Assembly: GCF_000724625.1 (NCBI RefSeq)
Contig: NZ_CP007139.1
Coordinates: 1,116,001-1,180,000, forward strand
Reading direction: 5' to 3'
DNA from: Fimbriimonas ginsengisoli Gsoil 348
Lineage (GTDB): Bacteria; Armatimonadota; Fimbriimonadia; Fimbriimonadales; Fimbriimonadaceae
DNA length: 64,000 bases
The position numbers were made by a program, and so were the translations under genes. Below, in pieces: positions 3,011-13,198 of this stretch. How positions within the stretch are numbered: the first letter of the stretch is position 1; each line of letters opens with the position of its first letter. The notes below the pieces were generated by a model. That model was not told the origin of the DNA. It did no database searches and saw only the letters and a list, made by a program, of their open reading frames with translations.

Positions 3011-5512
3011 ATGGAAGATCTCAGCCGACGTTCGATGTTGAAGATGGCCGGAGGAACCGCCCTTGGTCTTGGATTCCCAGGAAAGATCCTTGCCGTGCTC
3101 GCGGATGGGACGCTAGTGGTGCAAGATCACAAAGTCCCCGCGGAGAAGGGGCTCTCCCGGGAGTGGAGGGCTCAGCTTATCCAGCGCGGCTCCAAAGAGA
3201 CTTGGACCGGAGCCGACCTCGACTCGATCGGGATGCCGATCGGGGGCATCGCCGCCGGGCAGCTATATCTCTGCGGCGACGGGACCCTCGGCTGCTGGGA
3301 GATATTCAACGAACACCGCTACCAAAACGAAGGCCCGTACAGCTACGCGAAGCGTCCGATCCCAAAGAACGTGGAGTTCGGCTTCACGCTAGAGGCAGGG
3401 GGGCGCAAGTACCGGCTGGACAAGAGTTCCTTTAGCCAGATCGAGTTCAACGGCCAATATCCGATCGCGACCGTTTCGTATCGAGACCCCGCCTGCCCGG
3501 TGATGGCGGAGATGGTGGCGTTCTCGCCGTTCATTCCGCTCAACGCGAACGACTCCGGGCTGCCGGCTACGGTTTTCGAGATCACGGTTCACAACCCCGG
3601 CTCCAGCGATGTCGCGATCGACCTCGCCGGCTTCCTCGAAAATGCCTGCGCTCGATCTGGGGAGCACGAAGATAAGGGGCGGCGGCGACACACCGCCGCG
3701 CACGTGGCAAAAGGGCTTACCCTGATGGTTCATGGCGCCGATCCGGCCCACGACACGTTCGCTTCGGAGCGAGCAAATCCGCGACCGAACATTCTCATCG
3801 CTGACTTCGAGGGGGAAACGTACGGCAACTGGAAGACGACCGGAACGGCCTTCGGCCCCGGCCCCGCGGCGGGGACCCTTCCGAGCCAGAACCCGGTCAC
3901 CAAGTTCGGCGGCAAGCGATTGGTCAACTCGTTTTACGGCGGCGACGATACAAAGGGCCGTCTGACCTCGCCCGAGTTCACGGTCGAACGAGATTTCATC
4001 ACCTTCAAGATCGGCGGCGGCCATATGCCGGGGAAGACCTGCATCAACCTGCTGGTCAACGGCAAAGTCGTTCGCACTGCGACCGGTCTCAACAGCGAGG
4101 AGCTGTTATGGGATGCCTGGGACGTCACCGAGTTCGAGGGGAAACGGGCCCAGATCGAAATCGTGGACGACGCGACGGGCGGCTGGGGCCACATTAACAT
4201 CGACGACCTTAGCCAGGCCGATCGCATCAAGGACGCCAAAGAGGTCGCCTCGCGCCATGCCGATCCGAATCGCGACAACGGCACCCTCGCCCTTGCCGCG
4301 CTCGCGAATGGCAAAGCAAGCCACCAGGATAGCTACGACTTCGCCACCAAGTACGTCGGAGAGGTTCGACCCGCCCCATTTCACCTCGCTCCCGGCGCCT
4401 CCCACACGGTCACTTTTGTGCTTGCCTGGCATTTCCCGCACCACCCTCGCGGACGTAACTACGCCAACCACTTCGCCGACGCCGGCGAGGTGGCGACCTA
4501 CGTCGCCCGCAACCAAAAGCGGCTGAGCGCGGACACCAAGCTTTGGCGGGACACCTACTACGACTCGACCCTTCCGTATTGGCTGCTCGACCGGCTGCAT
4601 TCGACGATCGGCAACATCGCCACCGGCGTTACCGAATGGTGGAAGAGTGGCCGCTTCTGGGCTTGGGAGGGGGTCGTCTGCTGCTCCGGCACCTGCACCC
4701 ACGTTTGGAACTACGAGCACTCGATGGCGAGGCTCTTCCCCGAGCTCGAGCGGAACGTCCGCGAGCGGCAGGATTTTGGGGAAGCGTTCGAAGAGTCGAC
4801 CGGACTCGTGGGTTTCAGGAGCGACCGCGAGTATGCCGCCGACGGACAGTGCGGCACGATCCTCAAGGCATACCGCGAGCACCTCAACAGCGCCGACGAC
4901 CGTTTTCTGAAGAAGAACTGGGCGAGGACGAAGAAGGCACTGGAATACCTTATCAAGCACGACGCCAACGGCGACGGCATGATCGAGGATGCCCAGCCGA
5001 ACACCTACGACATCGACTTCTTCGGTGCGAATACGTTTGTCGGCTCGCTCTACCTAGCCGCTCTCCGCGCGGGCGAAGAGATGGCGAAAGAGCTTGGCGA
5101 CCGTCCATTCGCCGAGCAGTGCCGGAAGATCTACGAAAGCGGGCGCGAGGCCACGATGCGGCGGCTGTGGAACGGCGAGTACTTCATCCAGGAGGTCGAC
5201 CAGTCGAAATACAAGCAGTACCAATATGGGCCGGGGTGCCTTGCCGATCAGCTTTTTGGCCAAGGGTGGGCGCACCAGGTTGGGCTCGGGCACATCTATC
5301 CGGCGGATAAGGTGGTGAAGGGGCTGCAGTCGGTCTGGAAGTACAACTGGGCTCCCGACGTGGCCGGTCAGAACAAGCGCTGGCCGCCGCAGCGGCCGTT
5401 CGCGCTGCCCGGCAAGGGGGGCTCTTCACCTGCACCTGGCCGATCGGCGGTCGCGAGCAAGATCCGGTGTTGTACCGGGACGAGGTGTGGACCGGCATCG
5501 AGTACCAGGTAG
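3011..5512 (+). CDS. GH116 (GBA2-type) beta-glucosidase, main fragment before a frameshift
   Basis: Family members hydrolyse beta-glucosides or glucosylceramide-type substrates. A twin-arginine signal (LSRRSMLKMAGGTALGLGFP) indicates folded export. GBA2_N-type blocks (SIGMPIGGIAAGQLYLCGDG, near residue 72) precede a beta-sandwich insertion at about 260-402 (ADFEGETYGNW to GGWGHINIDD). The catalytic (alpha/alpha)6 region starts near 505; WAWEG near 551 and TYDIDFFGANTFVGSLYLAA near 665 are the likely nucleophile and acid/base neighbourhoods. Translation stays in the true frame up to residue about 803 and then runs out of frame to a stop at 5512. The continuation is the -1 frame from 5416 (next entry). 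The break lies in a run of six G at 5416-5421 where seven would restore the frame. Confidence 0.85.
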   Translation: MEDLSRRSMLKMAGGTALGLGFPGKILAVLADGTLVVQDHKVPAEKGLSREWRAQLIQRGSKETWTGADLDSIGMPIGGIAAGQLYLCGDGTLGCWEIFNEHRYQNEGPYSYAKRPIPKNVEFGFTLEAGGRKYRLDKSSFSQIEFNGQYPIATVSYRDPACPVMAEMVAFSPFIPLNANDSGLPATVFEITVHNPGSSDVAIDLAGFLENACARSGEHEDKGRRRHTAAHVAKGLTLMVHGADPAHDTFASERANPRPNILIADFEGETYGNWKTTGTAFGPGPAAGTLPSQNPVTKFGGKRLVNSFYGGDDTKGRLTSPEFTVERDFITFKIGGGHMPGKTCINLLVNGKVVRTATGLNSEELLWDAWDVTEFEGKRAQIEIVDDATGGWGHINIDDLSQADRIKDAKEVASRHADPNRDNGTLALAALANGKASHQDSYDFATKYVGEVRPAPFHLAPGASHTVTFVLAWHFPHHPRGRNYANHFADAGEVATYVARNQKRLSADTKLWRDTYYDSTLPYWLLDRLHSTIGNIATGVTEWWKSGRFWAWEGVVCCSGTCTHVWNYEHSMARLFPELERNVRERQDFGEAFEESTGLVGFRSDREYAADGQCGTILKAYREHLNSADDRFLKKNWARTKKALEYLIKHDANGDGMIEDAQPNTYDIDFFGANTFVGSLYLAALRAGEEMAKELGDRPFAEQCRKIYESGREATMRRLWNGEYFIQEVDQSKYKQYQYGPGCLADQLFGQGWAHQVGLGHIYPADKVVKGLQSVWKYNWAPDVAGQNKRWPPQRPFALPGKGGSSPAPGRSAVASKIRCCTGTRCGPASSTR

Positions 5513-6009
5513 CGGGCCACATGATCTGGGAAGGGATGGTCGAGGAGGGGCTTTCAATTTGCCGGGCCGTGCACGAGCGGTACCACCCTTCGAAGCGGAA
5601 CCCGTACAACGAGGTCGAGTGTAGCGACCACTACTCGCGGGCGATGGCGTCGTGGGGGGTCTTCACGGCTTTGTCGGGGTTCAGCTACAACGGGCCGGCG
5701 GGCAGAATCGGATTCGCGCCGCGGGTGACGCCGGAAGAGTTTAAATCAGCTTTCACGACGGCCGAAGGTTGGGGAACGTTCTCGCAGAAGATCTCAGCCG
5801 GCCGGCACTCGTGCCACCTGTCCATGGCTTGGGGAAGGCTCCGGGTGCACGATCTTTCGTTTCAGGCCCACGGGACCCATGCGGATGTGTCCGTCGAGGG
5901 TCGCCCGCTCGACGTGACGGCGTCGCAGAAGGACGGAATGCTCCACATATCCCTCCCCCGCCCGATAACGCTGAAAGCGGGGCAGGCGATCGAGATTGTG
6001 ATCACCTAG
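5467..6009 (+). CDS. GH116 beta-glucosidase, C-terminal fragment after the frameshift
   Basis: This frame carries the last 180 residues of the GH116 enzyme. YRDEVWTGIEYQVAGHMIWE and AVHERYHPSKRNPYNEVECS are typical of the C-terminal part of the (alpha/alpha)6 barrel (DUF608), followed by a small beta domain ending LPRPITLKAGQAIEIVIT. Reading back from 5467 the same frame is open to the G run at 5416-5421 and encodes LFTCTWPIGGREQDP, continuous with the upstream fragment. The listed GTG at 5467 is therefore probably not a real start; the two entries are one gene interrupted by a single-base deficit, a sequencing error, a mutation or a -1 slip. Confidence 0.8.
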   Translation: MLYRDEVWTGIEYQVAGHMIWEGMVEEGLSICRAVHERYHPSKRNPYNEVECSDHYSRAMASWGVFTALSGFSYNGPAGRIGFAPRVTPEEFKSAFTTAEGWGTFSQKISAGRHSCHLSMAWGRLRVHDLSFQAHGTHADVSVEGRPLDVTASQKDGMLHISLPRPITLKAGQAIEIVIT

Positions 6010-6282: not shown

Positions 6283-6621
6283 ATGACGTTCCGCGAAGAC
6301 CTTGAAGCACTGGTCCTTTCCTGCCTTTCGACAGGCCCGGCGCATGGATATGAACTCAGCAAGCGCATTCGATCGCTTAGTCAAGAAGCGCTTTCGGTGG
6401 CGGAAGGAAAGCTGTATCCGGCGTTGCACGCACTGGAAGCCGAGGGAGATATCTCCGCGGTGTGGGTTCCCCAGGGCAACAAGCCACCCCGTAAGGTCTA
6501 CGAATTGACCGAAGTTGGACGAAAGACGCTCCGGCGTAAGCAGGCGGAGTGGCAGGCCTTTGCCCGAGGCGTTGGATCCGTTCTGCAAAACGGGGTGACG
6601 GAATGGAAGTTGGTGAAATGA
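6283..6621 (+). CDS. PadR-family transcriptional regulator
   Basis: A 112-residue winged-helix repressor. The N terminus (FREDLEALVLSCLSTGPAHG then YELSKRI) and the wing region (EGKLYPALHALEAEGDISAV, then RKVYELTEVGRKTL) are diagnostic of PadR. In many bacteria such a regulator is co-transcribed with a membrane protein carrying an HAAS-like N-terminal domain, as here: the next gene's ATG overlaps this stop (ATGA at 6618-6621). It probably represses its own operon and responds to envelope or drug stress, but the signal is not evident. Confidence 0.9.
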   Translation: MTFREDLEALVLSCLSTGPAHGYELSKRIRSLSQEALSVAEGKLYPALHALEAEGDISAVWVPQGNKPPRKVYELTEVGRKTLRRKQAEWQAFARGVGSVLQNGVTEWKLVK

Positions 6622-7286
6622 ATACTCGCTCGATCGACACTTACGTCTCTGAACTCAGGCAGATGCTGGAGCGCACTCTCTCAACCCAATATGCTGAAGA
6701 AATCGCCGCCGAAGCGAAAAACCACCTGAGCGAACGGGCGGCCGAGCTGCGGGCGATTGGCCGCAGCGCCATGGATGCCGAGGCGCTGGCGGTCCAAGAA
6801 TTCGGTGAGCTGGGCGAGATTGCGGTCGAACTGGCGGACGGCTATCCGCCGAAATCCGCCATGGATGCCAGGCGGCTTGGCCCTTTGCCCGAGATTGCAC
6901 TGGGCGTCATGCTGTCCATCGCCGGCTACGGCTTCTCGATTTACGGAGGATGGCGCGGAGTCGAGGCGGCGGCCGGGATCTTGCTCCCGTCCATGCCGAT
7001 GCTGATGGTGCCGGGCTTGACGGCAGGATTGGGGCGCCTGAAGTACCGCCGGCTACGACCTCTCGCGATTCTTGTTCGGATGGCGAACTATGGCTTGTGC
7101 CTGACCCTCGTGGCCGCGGCTTGTCTCCTCGGCCTGCAACTTACCGGGCGAGCCGCCCTCACCACCGTCCTCCCCCTCGAATACGCCTTCGCGGCCGCGG
7201 TAGTTGTCATGTATTCGGTCATGAGAATGAGCTCCACCGACGGAAAGCTCTACACCTTCCTGCGATCCCGTTGCCGAATCCGTTGA
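6618..7286 (+). CDS. HAAS-domain membrane protein, PadR partner
   Basis: The start overlaps the PadR stop by four bases, so translation is coupled. Residues 1-80 (SIDTYVSELRQMLERTL, then HLSERAAELRAIGRSAMDAE, then EFGELGEIAVELADGY) form the helical HAAS-type signalling domain common in proteins encoded next to PadR. About four hydrophobic segments follow (near residues 90-110, 120-140, 155-180 and 190-205). No transporter or enzyme motif is seen. It is likely an inner-membrane partner whose level or state is controlled by the PadR protein. An ORF opening at 6549 in the same frame is an unsupported extension. Confidence 0.75.
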   Translation: MNTRSIDTYVSELRQMLERTLSTQYAEEIAAEAKNHLSERAAELRAIGRSAMDAEALAVQEFGELGEIAVELADGYPPKSAMDARRLGPLPEIALGVMLSIAGYGFSIYGGWRGVEAAAGILLPSMPMLMVPGLTAGLGRLKYRRLRPLAILVRMANYGLCLTLVAAACLLGLQLTGRAALTTVLPLEYAFAAAVVVMYSVMRMSSTDGKLYTFLRSRCRIR

Positions 7287-8553: not shown

Positions 8554-8994
8554 CTACCCGGCTTTGATCCTGGTGGATTGGTAGGAGATGAGTTGCCAGC
8601 GGCCGTCCTCGTGGAGGTAGACGCGGATGATTTGGAGCCAGTGATTGATCGGCTGGTTGCGGGCGGTGCCTTGGGAGTGGAGGCGTTCGGTTACAACGGC
8701 GGTTTCCCCGTGCATGTAGACGTGGACGCGGTCGGCGGCCATTCGCCTGACCCGGGTCGCGCCCGTCCGCACGGAGTGGATCATGTGCTCGCGGTCGCCG
8801 ATCGAGCCGGTCGAGGTGACGATTACCGCGGTTTTGTGGATGATTCGGTCGAGTTCCTTGTGGTCACCGTTGAACAGCGCCTCCATGAACTGCTTGTCGG
8901 TCTCTCGCACCTGTTTCTCGGGAGAAGAGCCTCCTTGGGCGGCCGATAGGCAGACGAGACCGGCGGCGAGGGCGGACAGAGCGGTTTTGTTCAT
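8554..8994 (-). CDS. Secreted SnoaL/DUF4440-like (NTF2-fold) protein
   Basis: 146 residues starting with a signal peptide (MNKTALSALAAGLVCLSAAQ). The rest fits the cone-shaped NTF2 fold of DUF4440/SnoaL proteins: RETDKQFMEALFNGDHKELD, then a strand GDREHMIHSVRTG, then TAVVTERLHSQG and the final strand DGRWQLISYQSTRI. Members of this family bind small ligands or act as isomerases or hydrolases; nothing here identifies one. The gene is monocistronic and transcribed away from the sigma factor gene. Confidence 0.8.
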   Translation of the reverse strand: MNKTALSALAAGLVCLSAAQGGSSPEKQVRETDKQFMEALFNGDHKELDRIIHKTAVIVTSTGSIGDREHMIHSVRTGATRVRRMAADRVHVYMHGETAVVTERLHSQGTARNQPINHWLQIIRVYLHEDGRWQLISYQSTRIKAG

Positions 8995-9281
8995 GGGTTG
9001 GCCATATTATCGCGCAGTTCCCATTCTCGCCCGAACGGAGCGAGAACATTCAACGAGTTCCTGGACTTCTCATATTGTTAGGCTGAGGTCGCCACTTTCA
9101 GGGCTCGATGGGTTGGCCGGTATTACCAAGGCTCCGCTTCGCTTCACCATGGGCTAGAGGATCGACGCCTCTTCGAGGCCAGAGTGGGACAATCCATCGT
9201 CCGTACCTTCGCTCGTTCGGATCAAATAATTTTCACTCTGGCGATGATCTATTTTTGAGGGTGGGGGCGCCTTAGGGGTTG

Positions 9282-10811
9282 ATGACGCACGAAACGCAAC
9301 AAGAGCTCCTGACGCGAGCCCTCGCTGGGGATCGCGCGGCGACGGATCAATTATTCGAGGCCCACCGGCCAACTATCCTCCGGCTCGCCATGCGAGCCCT
9401 CGGAAATGTCGACGACGCTTACGACGTGGCCCAAGAAACCTTGGCGTACGCAGTCGTGAAGCTCCCCACGCTTCGCGACCACACGAAATTCACAGCCTGG
9501 CTTCGCCAGCTCACCCTGACCCACTGCACCGACTACCGCCGGCGTCGAGGCACTCGCCGGCTCGGTGAGCCGATCGCCCAGTTGAACGAAGCCTCAGAAG
9601 AGGCCGATCTGACGCAACGGCTCGCCATCCGCGATTCCTTAAAGCTTCTCTCCGAGCCTCATCAAGATGCCCTCCTCATGTATTACGTCGGCGGATGGTC
9701 CATCCCGGAGATCGCCCACCTGCTCGAGGTCCCGCCGAACACCGTGCGCAGCCGTCTCATGGCCGCGAAGAGGTTGATTCGCGACGACCTCCAGACCGTT
9801 TTCCCCTACCTCAACCCTATGAAACTAGCGAATCCGACTCTGAGCGAGTCCCACATGTCTCTCATCGAAGCCGCGTTTCCCGGCTCGCGAATCGTCAGCG
9901 TCCAGGCCGACCCCGAGCCCTGGCAACCGTTTTCCCCGCGCGTCAAGCTCGCGCTTTCCGACGGAACGCAAAGAACCGTCGACTTCCGCCGCATCGATGC
10001 TCATCGCATCCAGCTCGCCCAAGCACTGGCCCGGCTCGGTATTCCCGGACCCCAGGTGATCGCGGGACCGCAGCCGGGGCAGTCGCTCTGCCTTTGTCAG
10101 GTTCCGCGCGGCGAGAACCTGAGCCTTTGGGCGCTGGGAGGCACCCCGCACCGGATCCGGCTTGCCACCGAACGGGCGATCGAAGGACTCGACCGACTCC
10201 AAGCCTGCAGCGAGGGGCTCATGGACGACCCGATCGGAGCGACGCTCCCTCGACGAACTTTGCTGGACGAAGTGGCGATCCTCACCGACGACGAACGGTG
10301 GAACGCCGACCCGTGGCTGGCGGAGGCGGGAGCCGAGCGCCGGGCTTGGCTTGCGGACCCCTGGTTCGCCGACGCCGTCGCGCGGGTCGGCGCCGCGGTG
10401 GTCGAAATCGACACACCCCTTGTGTACACCGACTACATGTTCTTCTTTCCCCAGGGATACCGGATCCAAACGGGAACTGCGCCGATGGACGACCTCGTCG
10501 GCTGGCCCGGAGATCCGCACTATGGGGAAAACCCTCTCGTAGAATTCGTCCATGTCTTCGGCCACTTCGGCGATCCGTTACTCGGCTTGGCGATGGTGTG
10601 GGTCTACGACTGCTACCCGTTCGTCCACACCGGTTTCGTCGAGCAGGTGCTCTGGCGGCGCGGCGTCACCCAGCGCGAGTTCGCGCCGCGCTTGGCGCTG
10701 AAAGCGCTGCAAATGATCGCCCGCGATCTTCCGCTGGAGCGTCCGGCGGGCGAAGCCAGGTATTGGCAGAGCCTTCGCGGGTGGGCGGAGCAGGCATTAA
10801 GCTGGATGTAG
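9282..10811 (+). CDS. ECF-type sigma factor fused to a degenerate APH-like kinase domain
   Basis: Residues 1-170 are a complete ECF-like sigma factor: region 2 (LFEAHRPTILRLAMRALGNV, then DAYDVAQETLAYAV) and region 4 (LLSEPHQDALLMYYVGGWSI, then EIAHLLEVPPNTVRSRL). About 330 residues follow, which no ordinary ECF factor has. They resemble an aminoglycoside phosphotransferase fold: an N-lobe-like strand pair RVKLALSDGTQRTVDFRR, a helix ALARLGIPGPQVI, then LVYTDYMFFFPQGY where kinases have the HGD catalytic loop, and MDDLVGWPGDPHYG where they have the DWG/GDP metal loop. The HGD is replaced by YTD, so phosphotransfer is doubtful. It may be a ligand-sensing pseudokinase that controls the sigma part. 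ATG 9282 is preferred over TTG 9279, with AGGGG upstream. No anti-sigma gene is adjacent. Confidence 0.75.
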   Translation: MTHETQQELLTRALAGDRAATDQLFEAHRPTILRLAMRALGNVDDAYDVAQETLAYAVVKLPTLRDHTKFTAWLRQLTLTHCTDYRRRRGTRRLGEPIAQLNEASEEADLTQRLAIRDSLKLLSEPHQDALLMYYVGGWSIPEIAHLLEVPPNTVRSRLMAAKRLIRDDLQTVFPYLNPMKLANPTLSESHMSLIEAAFPGSRIVSVQADPEPWQPFSPRVKLALSDGTQRTVDFRRIDAHRIQLAQALARLGIPGPQVIAGPQPGQSLCLCQVPRGENLSLWALGGTPHRIRLATERAIEGLDRLQACSEGLMDDPIGATLPRRTLLDEVAILTDDERWNADPWLAEAGAERRAWLADPWFADAVARVGAAVVEIDTPLVYTDYMFFFPQGYRIQTGTAPMDDLVGWPGDPHYGENPLVEFVHVFGHFGDPLLGLAMVWVYDCYPFVHTGFVEQVLWRRGVTQREFAPRLALKALQMIARDLPLERPAGEARYWQSLRGWAEQALSWM

Positions 10812-10909: not shown

Positions 10910-13198
10910 ATGACGTTGACTCTCCGTTCGAGATTGCTTTTCGGTTTTTTGCTCGCGCTTGGAGCGAGCGCTCACGCGGCGAAGTTAGTCGAGGTGCGTA
11001 CCGTCGACGACGAGTACGTGATGATCCGGTGGCAGGACGGCTGGGTTCGGTATCGCGACCTGGGGACGGGACCGAGGGCGTTCAACAACCCCGAGGGGCT
11101 TGGGGACGACGTTTTGGAGAAATTCGGGCTGCCGGTGGATACCGCGGCGGCGACAGATCCGGCCAGCTACAGCTTGGTTTCAACAGACGACCCTGGGTAT
11201 CGAACCCCGGTCCGGCCGGTCAAATGTTCTCGCAAGGCGAAAGTCTCTGGCTCGGCGTGGAAGTGGCCCGATCCCGATTACACATTGGAGCACACGATCT
11301 TTCTGAAGCTCCCGAAGAAGCTGGAGCATGGGAAGCACTATCGGCTCACGATTTCGCCGCAGACCCATAGCGACGTGGAGGCCCGCACGTTCGCTTTCGA
11401 CATCTTTCGGAACGTCTCGGAGGCGGTGCACGCCAACATCATCGGCTACGATCCGAGCCAGACGGCGGCGAAATCGGCGGACCTATACATGTGGCTGGGG
11501 GACGGCGGGGCGCGCGACTATTCGAGCTACGCAGGACGGCGGGTGATGCTGTTCGACGCGAAGAGCGGCAAGAAGTACGAGGCCGGGACGGTGGTTTTTT
11601 GGAAGTCCAGCGGACCGGATTGCGGGACGTGGAACCTCACGAAGTCGGACGTTTGGAACTGCGACTTTTCCGCCTTCAAGCAACCGGGGACGTACCGGCT
11701 CGTGGTGGACGGGGTCGGCTGCAGCCAAGATTTCACCATCGCCGACGATGTGTACCGCCAGCCTTACAAGACGTCGGTGCTTGGATACTTCTTCATGCGG
11801 GAGGGGGAGAGCAAAGATTTCTTTCCGGTACCGCGGCAGCCACGATACGTCCCGAACGTGGACCCGCCCGGGTTCAAAGTGTTTCTGACGACGATGTCTC
11901 CGATCCACCCGGATTGGAAGAAGCTTGGCGGCGATCCTTGGGACAACAAGGATTGGTCGCGATACAAGGAACCGGGAGAGCCGACGAATCCGAACGCGTG
12001 GGGCGGACATTCCGACGCCACCGACTGGGACCGGAACGCTACTCACGTCTCGAACATCTGGGACATCCTCCTGCCGTTCGTGTTGAGCAACGGTCGGCTA
12101 AAGGAGGACGACCTAGGGATTCGGGAGAGCGGAAACGGGATTCCCGACCTGCTCGACGAAGCCCGCTACGAAGTCGACTTCTGGCTTCGGCTGCGCGACA
12201 CGAAGGGCGGATACAGCTTCGGGCTGAACAATCCGACGGTGGACGACAAAGCGATGTACCAGGCGGCGGCGGCGCCTTATATGGCGTGGGCAAACGCGGC
12301 CAACGCGGCGATGCTCGCCGACAGCTTCCGAATCGCGGGCAAGCCGGAGCTGGCCGAGCAGTATCGAGCGGCGGCGACCGAAGCTTGGAAGGTGGCGGCG
12401 GAGCGGGATCTCGACTTCAAGTTCGGCATCGGCAATGGCTCGATTCGCGGCCGCGATTTGAAGATGATGGCGGCGGCGTTCCTCTACAACGTCACCGGCG
12501 ACCGGGTTTTCGAAGACGCGATGGCCAAAGAGAGCATCGTTTCCGGGCCGGAGGTGGCGACGGAGGAGGCCGACAAATACAACCAGCTCTATGGCACGGC
12601 GGCCTATCTTATGTGCGCCAAGTTCGGATGGCGTCCGATCCACCACCCGGAGCTGCTGGCGAACATGAAGGCGGCGGTGATGTTGGAGACGCGGCATAAG
12701 AACGTCGCTCCCTCGTTAATCCGGCCGTCGCGGCGAAGCAGCGACGAGGCGTACGGATGGTTCCAGACGGTGGAAGAGGTGCAGCGGCTGTGCGTGGCCC
12801 ATGCGGTGGCGACTTCGCCGAGCGACCGGCTGGACTTCCAGCGGGCGATGATCTTAGAGGCGGACTACGGGCTTGGGCGGAACCCGATGAACATGACGCA
12901 GATGACCGGGTTGGGAGCGCGGCATCCGGAGGAGATCTACACGTCTGGACGGAACGACGGCATTCCCGATGTCCATCCGGGACACACGCCCTATATGAAC
13001 GCCGAAGCCTGGAGTCCCGGCTTCATGGGCGACCCGCAGTGGTACGCGAGCCGGGGTTACCCGGCCTGGAGCGAATGGCCACACGGCGAAGCGCTTTGGC
13101 GGGCCCGGTACTGCTACTGCAACAACGAGTTCACGCCGCAACAAACGATGCGGGGGAAGATGTGTTTGCTTGCGTATCTGTACTCTTTGCGGAAGTGA
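10910..13198 (+). CDS. Secreted GH9 family glycosidase (cellulase-type)
   Basis: 762 residues with a signal peptide (about 1-23, ending AHA). An N-terminal beta-rich region (about 25-280) contains an Ig-like domain of the type preceding GH9 catalytic domains (HANIIGYDPSQTAAKSADL; FKQPGTYRLVVDGVGCSQDF). The (alpha/alpha)6 catalytic domain has GGHSDATDWDRN near 366 in place of the usual GGWYDAGD, ESGNGIPDLLDEARYEVDFW, and DYGLGRNPMNMTQMTG. The general-acid glutamate is probably in CNNEFTPQQ near 739. The family hydrolyses beta-1,4-glucans or related oligosaccharides by inversion. The divergent first motif suggests a non-standard substrate. The neighbouring GH27 gene suggests a joint role in plant-polysaccharide use. 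Confidence 0.85.
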   Translation: MTLTLRSRLLFGFLLALGASAHAAKLVEVRTVDDEYVMIRWQDGWVRYRDLGTGPRAFNNPEGLGDDVLEKFGLPVDTAAATDPASYSLVSTDDPGYRTPVRPVKCSRKAKVSGSAWKWPDPDYTLEHTIFLKLPKKLEHGKHYRLTISPQTHSDVEARTFAFDIFRNVSEAVHANIIGYDPSQTAAKSADLYMWLGDGGARDYSSYAGRRVMLFDAKSGKKYEAGTVVFWKSSGPDCGTWNLTKSDVWNCDFSAFKQPGTYRLVVDGVGCSQDFTIADDVYRQPYKTSVLGYFFMREGESKDFFPVPRQPRYVPNVDPPGFKVFLTTMSPIHPDWKKLGGDPWDNKDWSRYKEPGEPTNPNAWGGHSDATDWDRNATHVSNIWDILLPFVLSNGRLKEDDLGIRESGNGIPDLLDEARYEVDFWLRLRDTKGGYSFGLNNPTVDDKAMYQAAAAPYMAWANAANAAMLADSFRIAGKPELAEQYRAAATEAWKVAAERDLDFKFGIGNGSIRGRDLKMMAAAFLYNVTGDRVFEDAMAKESIVSGPEVATEEADKYNQLYGTAAYLMCAKFGWRPIHHPELLANMKAAVMLETRHKNVAPSLIRPSRRSSDEAYGWFQTVEEVQRLCVAHAVATSPSDRLDFQRAMILEADYGLGRNPMNMTQMTGLGARHPEEIYTSGRNDGIPDVHPGHTPYMNAEAWSPGFMGDPQWYASRGYPAWSEWPHGEALWRARYCYCNNEFTPQQTMRGKMCLLAYLYSLRK

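Follow-up and report, generated by a model that had tools for sequence, protein, structure and literature searches.

An ECF-type sigma factor of Fimbriimonas ginsengisoli fused to a putative pseudokinase of aminoglycoside-phosphotransferase descent

Here, we report that Fimbriimonas ginsengisoli Gsoil 348 encodes an ECF-type sigma factor joined to a large C-terminal extension which, as judged from sequence comparison, descended from APH-type (choline/aminoglycoside/sugar) small-molecule kinases. We consider it reasonably probable that this protein is a self-contained, autoregulated ECF sigma factor that does without an anti-sigma factor and is gated by its APH-descended pseudokinase. ECF factors with C-terminal sensory extensions and without anti-sigma factors are an established class (PMC8999054), and reviews of these factors name SnoaL, TPR, WD40, cysteine-rich, zinc-finger and membrane extensions, whereas an extension of the APH-pseudokinase type, or any sigma-APH fusion, was not found in the open-access literature that we searched (the 2021 ECF re-classification lies outside that search).

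The fusion gene and its distribution

The DNA analysed in this study (the window) is a stretch of 64,000 nt (NZ_CP007139.1, positions 1,116,001-1,180,000) from a strain with one circular chromosome of 5,231,762 bp (PMC4072686). The sigma-pseudokinase gene is complete and occupies positions 9282-10811 of the window on the forward strand, with an ATG at 9282, an uninterrupted coding sequence (9282-10808) and a stop codon at 10809-10811; the single alternative in-frame start upstream is a TTG at 9279. In the product of 509 amino acids, a variable linker connects ECF sigma regions 2 and 4 to an extension of ~320 residues. Both sigma regions, which an earlier note on this sequence had described as complete, matched their Pfam models over the cut-offs: region 2 (residues 24-90, positions 9351-9551, forward strand) matched PF04542 (Sigma70_r2, 3.2e-10) and region 4 (residues 114-164, positions 9621-9773, forward strand) matched PF08281 (Sigma70_r4_2, 1.9e-11). 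With these two regions and without regions 1 and 3, the sigma part falls within the ECF (group IV) factors, and the protein also matched Pfam Sigma70_ECF and, over the cut-off, the NCBIfam sigma70-ECF superfamily. The reading frame is no artefact, because the fusion stays intact in homologues with 38-65% overall identity to the window protein (six aligned fusions), and the combination of sigma factor and extension in one ORF is a genuine observation.

A profile search of the phylum, a survey that the earlier note had proposed, revealed 10 fusion genes in 9 of 291 Armatimonadota genomes belonging to four families; one of them (in G070) is split across two contigs. A profile built from six fused extension domains (hereafter A2) had matches in 13 of the 291 genomes, counting fused, fragmentary and stand-alone or partial forms, and the stand-alone or partial relatives were located in G076, G077, G100 and G101. 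One fragment of the pseudokinase domain without a sigma part (L049, 2251-3240; contig C52 of G019) has its C-terminus broken at the contig end and is either a decayed gene or an assembly chimera. When one genome per species was scanned, a procedure that detects close relatives only, the close relatives of the fusion came from two other Armatimonadota MAGs, and a plasmid search gave no match. For 29 of 36 pairs of fusions, identity was higher in the extension than in the sigma domain (means of 55% and 51%), which suggests that the extension is under constraint at least as strong as that on the sigma domain. In genomes of the genus that lack the fusion, the best orthologue of the sigma domain did not exceed 36% identity.

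Descent of the extension and its active-site residues

Residues ~187-509 had no matches in Pfam, NCBIfam or PDB sequences, and the curated Pfam APH model (PF01636) matched the stand-alone relatives and none of the fused domains. The A2 profile detected the stand-alone proteins of G076 and G077 (E values of 6.5e-10 and 1.8e-9), as well as the C-terminal parts of proteins in G101 and G100, and the stand-alone proteins of G076 and G077 in turn matched PF01636 at 4.5e-14 and 4.2e-14. When A2 was compared by hhalign with an alignment headed by these two proteins, the match covered 278 columns (97.6%, 4.6e-12), whereas direct profile comparison with the canonical APHs of its own genome alone was weak (E value of 0.014). 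The clear homology to APH thus came solely through stand-alone intermediates, and the link is transitive and, in our opinion, sound. At the level of sequence, then, descent of the extension from APH-type small-molecule kinases is shown, and the degenerate APH-like domain proposed in the earlier note is upheld. None of the known non-kinase sigma extensions, a finding of which would have spoken against that proposal, matched the window extension: SnoaL-like domains gave no Pfam match up to an E value of 1, TPR and WD40 repeats gave no Pfam match, and a transmembrane extension was rejected as the highest 19-residue hydropathy was just 1.26.

Two stand-alone APH-family proteins, L038 (1123-2085, reverse strand) and L039 (4958-5965, reverse strand), have NGD or SGD in place of HGD and retain the catalytic Asp; no recognisable sigma gene adjoins either of them. 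They are the nearest relatives of the pseudokinase that are likely to be active, and they offer the best clue to the substrate of its ancestor.

The structure comparison was consistent with this descent, to which it adds weak support. The AF2 model of the extension was poor (three-row alignment, mean pLDDT of 57, pTM of 0.46). Its N-terminal part is arranged as strand-strand-strand-helix-strand-strand, the order of a kinase N-lobe, and an N-lobe-like part (residues ~187-275, positions 9840-10106, forward strand) is also delineated by the alignment to stand-alone kinases. In the VIA search, nearly all top matches of the model were structures of APH, choline kinase, FN3K, hexosamine kinase or maltokinase. 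The best of them (Z score of 8.6, near the level that can arise without kinship) was APH(4)-Ia on the C-lobe over 167 residues at 4.0 A, and APH(2'')-IVa and APH(3') fitted the N-lobe of this low-confidence model over 74-85 residues at ~3.3 A. Each lobe was fitted by APH structures separately, and the best Foldseek match of the model (E value of 0.13) was not significant.

With regard to the catalytic loop, the earlier note had placed YTD where the HGD motif of APH belongs. This tripeptide (residues 382-384, positions 10425-10433, forward strand) lies in PLVYTD, which corresponds to PLVFSNGD of the stand-alone kinases; the two groups read PLVFSNGDYQPGN...YLDFEKAGFEDPLWTLARYPVYALEPFEHVGL (stand-alone relatives) versus PLVYTDYMFFFPQGYRI...PLVEFVHVFGHFGDPLLGLAMVWVYDCYPFVHTGFVEQ (fusions). 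In an ungapped alignment YTD stands opposite FSN and the catalytic Asp opposite M, T, H or L, whereas with a two-residue gap the catalytic Asp stands opposite D, S, H or N. The loss claimed in the earlier note thus holds insofar as neither plausible register gives the aligned fusions a conserved catalytic Asp, while the exact register that it assumed is uncertain.

The remaining active-site positions are a mixture of losses and retentions. The position of the helix-C Glu is occupied by Arg in eight of the 10 fusions, by Leu in one and by Glu in one (G070), and that of the Mg-binding Asn by Asn in four and by Gln in five. The first Asp of the DxD motif, which binds Mg, has most likely given way to an invariant Glu, E421 (positions 10542-10544, forward strand), aligned with it across a gap of two residues. 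A basic residue, R236, is invariant among the fusions at the position of the beta-3 Lys. Compared with active APHs, then, the catalytic Asp and (in nine of 10 fusions) the helix-C Glu are lost and the Mg-binding Asp is most likely replaced, with an Arg retained in beta-3. On the other hand, the signature DPLLGLAMVWVYDCYPFVHTGFVEQ (residues 431-455, positions 10572-10646, forward strand), which comprises the structural Asp of APH (GDP) and a C-lobe stretch, is nearly unchanged among the fusions, and D431, P432, L433 and DCYPFVHTG are invariant in all 10. The stretch just after the GDP motif forms part of the acceptor site in APH-type kinases. Because the conserved C-lobe stretch corresponds to this acceptor-contact region, we infer that an acceptor-type ligand is favoured over a nucleotide. 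Loss of the helix-C Glu in nine of 10 fusions and replacement of the Mg-binding Asp in all of them speak against ordinary nucleotide binding, so that gating by a nucleotide appears to be the weaker part of the earlier interpretation.

The fusions share with APH-type kinases (PF01636) the order of lobes, the Asp of the GDP motif and a common ancestry traced via stand-alone intermediates, and differ from them in being fused to a sigma factor, in lying below Pfam detection and in lacking the catalytic Asp and helix-C Glu. A comparable combination is found in the bacterial spore kinase (BSK) pseudokinases (YtaA/CotI-related), which are APH/choline-kinase-like and have lost the catalytic Asp and retained the structural Asp (PMC2860764); unlike the fusion, they are spore-coat proteins of spore-forming Gram-positive bacteria and are not fused to a transcription factor.

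Promoter-like element, sigma lineage and genomic context

Two features that the earlier note had missed are a conserved promoter-like element and an ECF clade with apparently swapped extensions. The fusion genes are preceded by an element of the form T(G)(A)TC-N17-(G)CGCCT/A. Its spacing of 17 nt is fixed, and its last base lies 6-12 nt before the start codon. In the window it reads TGATC-N17-GCGCCT (positions 9245-9272, forward strand; TGATC at 9245-9249 and GCGCCT at 9267-9272) and ends 9 nt before the start codon. When each site was scored with a leave-one-out PWM, it ranked first at its own locus in nine of the 10 fusion loci, the exception being G012 (1.4 bits, rank 10), and the window site ranked first of 127,944 window positions (20.6 versus 11.2 bits). 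A significant match to the element was also present upstream of three of the related ECF genes with other extensions, each time with a -10 of the CGTC type: TGATTACTTTT..GCGTCT at 11 nt from the start of L092, TGCTCACTTTC..GCGTCA at 6 nt from that of L093 and TCATCATTTTC..CCGTCA at 40 nt from that of L084, where elements as good occurred in 0.0007, 0.002 and 0.009 of random blocks, respectively. CGTC is the usual, canonical -10 of ECF factors. Of the ECFs whose promoters can be predicted, about 55% are considered autoregulated, positive autoregulation being the usual case (PMC8103513). Such control is not obligatory in ECF factors. The comparison strongly suggests that TGATC-N17-GCGCCT is the cognate promoter of the fusion gene, which would thus be autoregulated with positive feedback. 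With this candidate promoter so near the start codon, the mRNA would be leaderless or nearly so.

A regulon beyond the fusion gene itself was not supported by counts of near-exact motif copies, which were no commoner in genomes with the fusion gene than in those without, and the six exact TGATC-N17-GCGCCT sites in the genome of F. ginsengisoli included no convincing second target. A profile model, trained on the same sites and scored on the best 150 candidates per genome, gave a single outstanding site for each gene copy. This suggests that the regulon is probably small, or that its further promoters are unlike the one used for autoregulation.

In the tree of sigma domains, whose relatives were picked by similarity to the window sigma domain, which limits its reading as a lineage, nine fusions lay on one side of a branch with a support of 69 (eight of the nine at 95), and the G005 fusion formed a long branch. 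The other members of the set enclosing the fusions all carry different large extensions, and the plain ECF factors of the genus are placed apart. Related Armatimonadota ECFs with other large C-terminal extensions include L084, L087, L088, L090, L092 and L093; TPR and WD40 extensions (L092, L088) and two further domains (L090, L093) are present among them. The simplest reading of these sequences suggests one sigma lineage that exchanges sensor domains.

The earlier note had also stated that no anti-sigma gene is adjacent. We agree with this, as no anti-sigma domain was found by Pfam in the neighbours at the window locus, and neither an anti-sigma gene nor a common neighbour was seen at the other fusion loci among the neighbours read, which were compared by sequence start and size. 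Neighbourhoods differed between all fusion loci, and the sole sharing was between two copies within G076. In the window the gene is flanked by genes for a secreted DUF4440/SnoaL-like protein (8554-8994, reverse strand; Pfam), a GH18 enzyme, a GH9 enzyme (10910-13198, forward strand; Pfam) and an alpha-galactosidase. Nearby, a gene for a GH116-type glycosidase is apparently split by a frameshift into two overlapping ORFs (3011-5512 and 5467-6009, forward strand), with DUF608 profile positions 98-265 in the first and 291-360 in the second, and is either a pseudogene or the result of a sequencing error. At 6283-7286 (forward strand), a PadR regulator gene overlaps one that encodes a membrane protein matching HAAS weakly; regulator/membrane-protein pairs of this type are known.

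Possible modes of action

In the reading that we prefer, the sigma gene would be transcribed from its own ECF-type promoter, resulting in positive feedback. The pseudokinase would bind a small molecule in the pocket that once held the acceptor, or else a partner protein on the same face. This binding would alter the packing of the domain on sigma regions 2 and 4, whereby binding of RNA polymerase would be released or allowed. A similar mechanism has been described for ECF41 with its SnoaL extension and proposed for ECF42 with its TPR extension. We infer in this way that the pseudokinase gates promoter use; the extension could instead be needed constitutively. A more specific version, put forward tentatively and as possible more than probable, is that a metabolite or antibiotic in the old acceptor pocket gates a self-amplifying sigma factor, within a lineage that has interchangeable TPR, WD40 and APH-pseudokinase sensors.

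The proposed arrangement has several counterparts among known ECF systems. It resembles ECF41 (SigJ, Ecf41Bli), in which sigma regions 2 and 4 are followed by a C-terminal, enzyme-like small-molecule fold without an anti-sigma factor, and the SnoaL-like extension works by conformational change (PMC8999054), although the extension of the fusion has ~320 residues and is of APH-kinase rather than SnoaL descent. Like ECF42 and ECF57, the fusion has a large cytosolic extension and no adjacent anti-sigma gene, and its nearest sigma relatives carry TPR or WD40 domains, a likeness judged from the extensions; the fold of the extension and probably the kind of signal are different. EcfP is likewise an ECF factor tied to a kinase-fold protein (PMC8999054), yet there a separate, active Ser/Thr protein kinase phosphorylates the sigma factor, whereas here a degenerate small-molecule-kinase domain is covalently attached to it.

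We also considered that the pseudokinase, instead of sensing a small molecule, may be a protein-interaction platform to which a regulator from another locus binds; the TPR and WD40 extensions of ECF42 and ECF57 have been proposed to work in this way. The TPR and WD40 domains of the closest sigma relatives are typical protein-binding folds, and the absence of catalytic and helix-C residues would suit such a role; however, no conserved partner gene was seen, and the top conservation lies just past the GDP motif (DCYPFVHTG), where a pocket fits at least equally well, and this explanation seems to us rather doubtful. Some pseudokinases still bind nucleotide or have a different transferase activity, as in AMPylation by SelO. 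It is quite unlikely that the present domain keeps nucleotide binding or has such an activity, directed at the sigma factor or RNA polymerase: the beta-3 Lys position is occupied by the invariant R236, E421 might coordinate a metal and the Mg-binding Asn is kept in four fusions, but the catalytic Asp is lost from a loop whose sequence differs among members, and the helix-C Glu has become Arg in eight fusions and Leu in one.

The linker raises the question of whether the gene has two products, the full fusion and a free pseudokinase starting at M180 (ATG at 9819-9821, forward strand), which might serve as an antagonist or sensor. An ATG is present at this point of the sigma/pseudokinase border in all 10 fusions even though the surrounding linker varies, and in eight of them the residue after the Met is S, P or T, so an internal start is possible. 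M180 could also be a relic of the start of the ancestral kinase gene; ribosome-binding sequences are not enriched before it (p = 0.55), and L084, a related ECF with a different extension, likewise has PM in its linker, which makes two products unlikely. That the extension is an inert relic of fusion with no regulatory role might be argued from its patchy spread over nine of 291 genomes and from its function not being known. We regard this as highly improbable, considering that the extension is at least as conserved as the sigma domain in most pairs (29 of 36), that a stretch of 25 residues is nearly invariant across families and that the genus has no unfused orthologue above 36% identity.

If the preferred reading of a gated, autoregulated sigma factor is correct, the candidate promoter and the sigma gene together provide a two-part reporter assay with which ligands can be sought and the contribution of the extension assessed. 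A domain derived from a small-molecule kinase would equip a sigma factor with a soluble pocket of ligand size, through which a metabolite could gate the initiation of transcription with no anti-sigma factor involved, and the lost catalytic residues suggest that the pocket of a retired enzyme may now be a built-in sensor.
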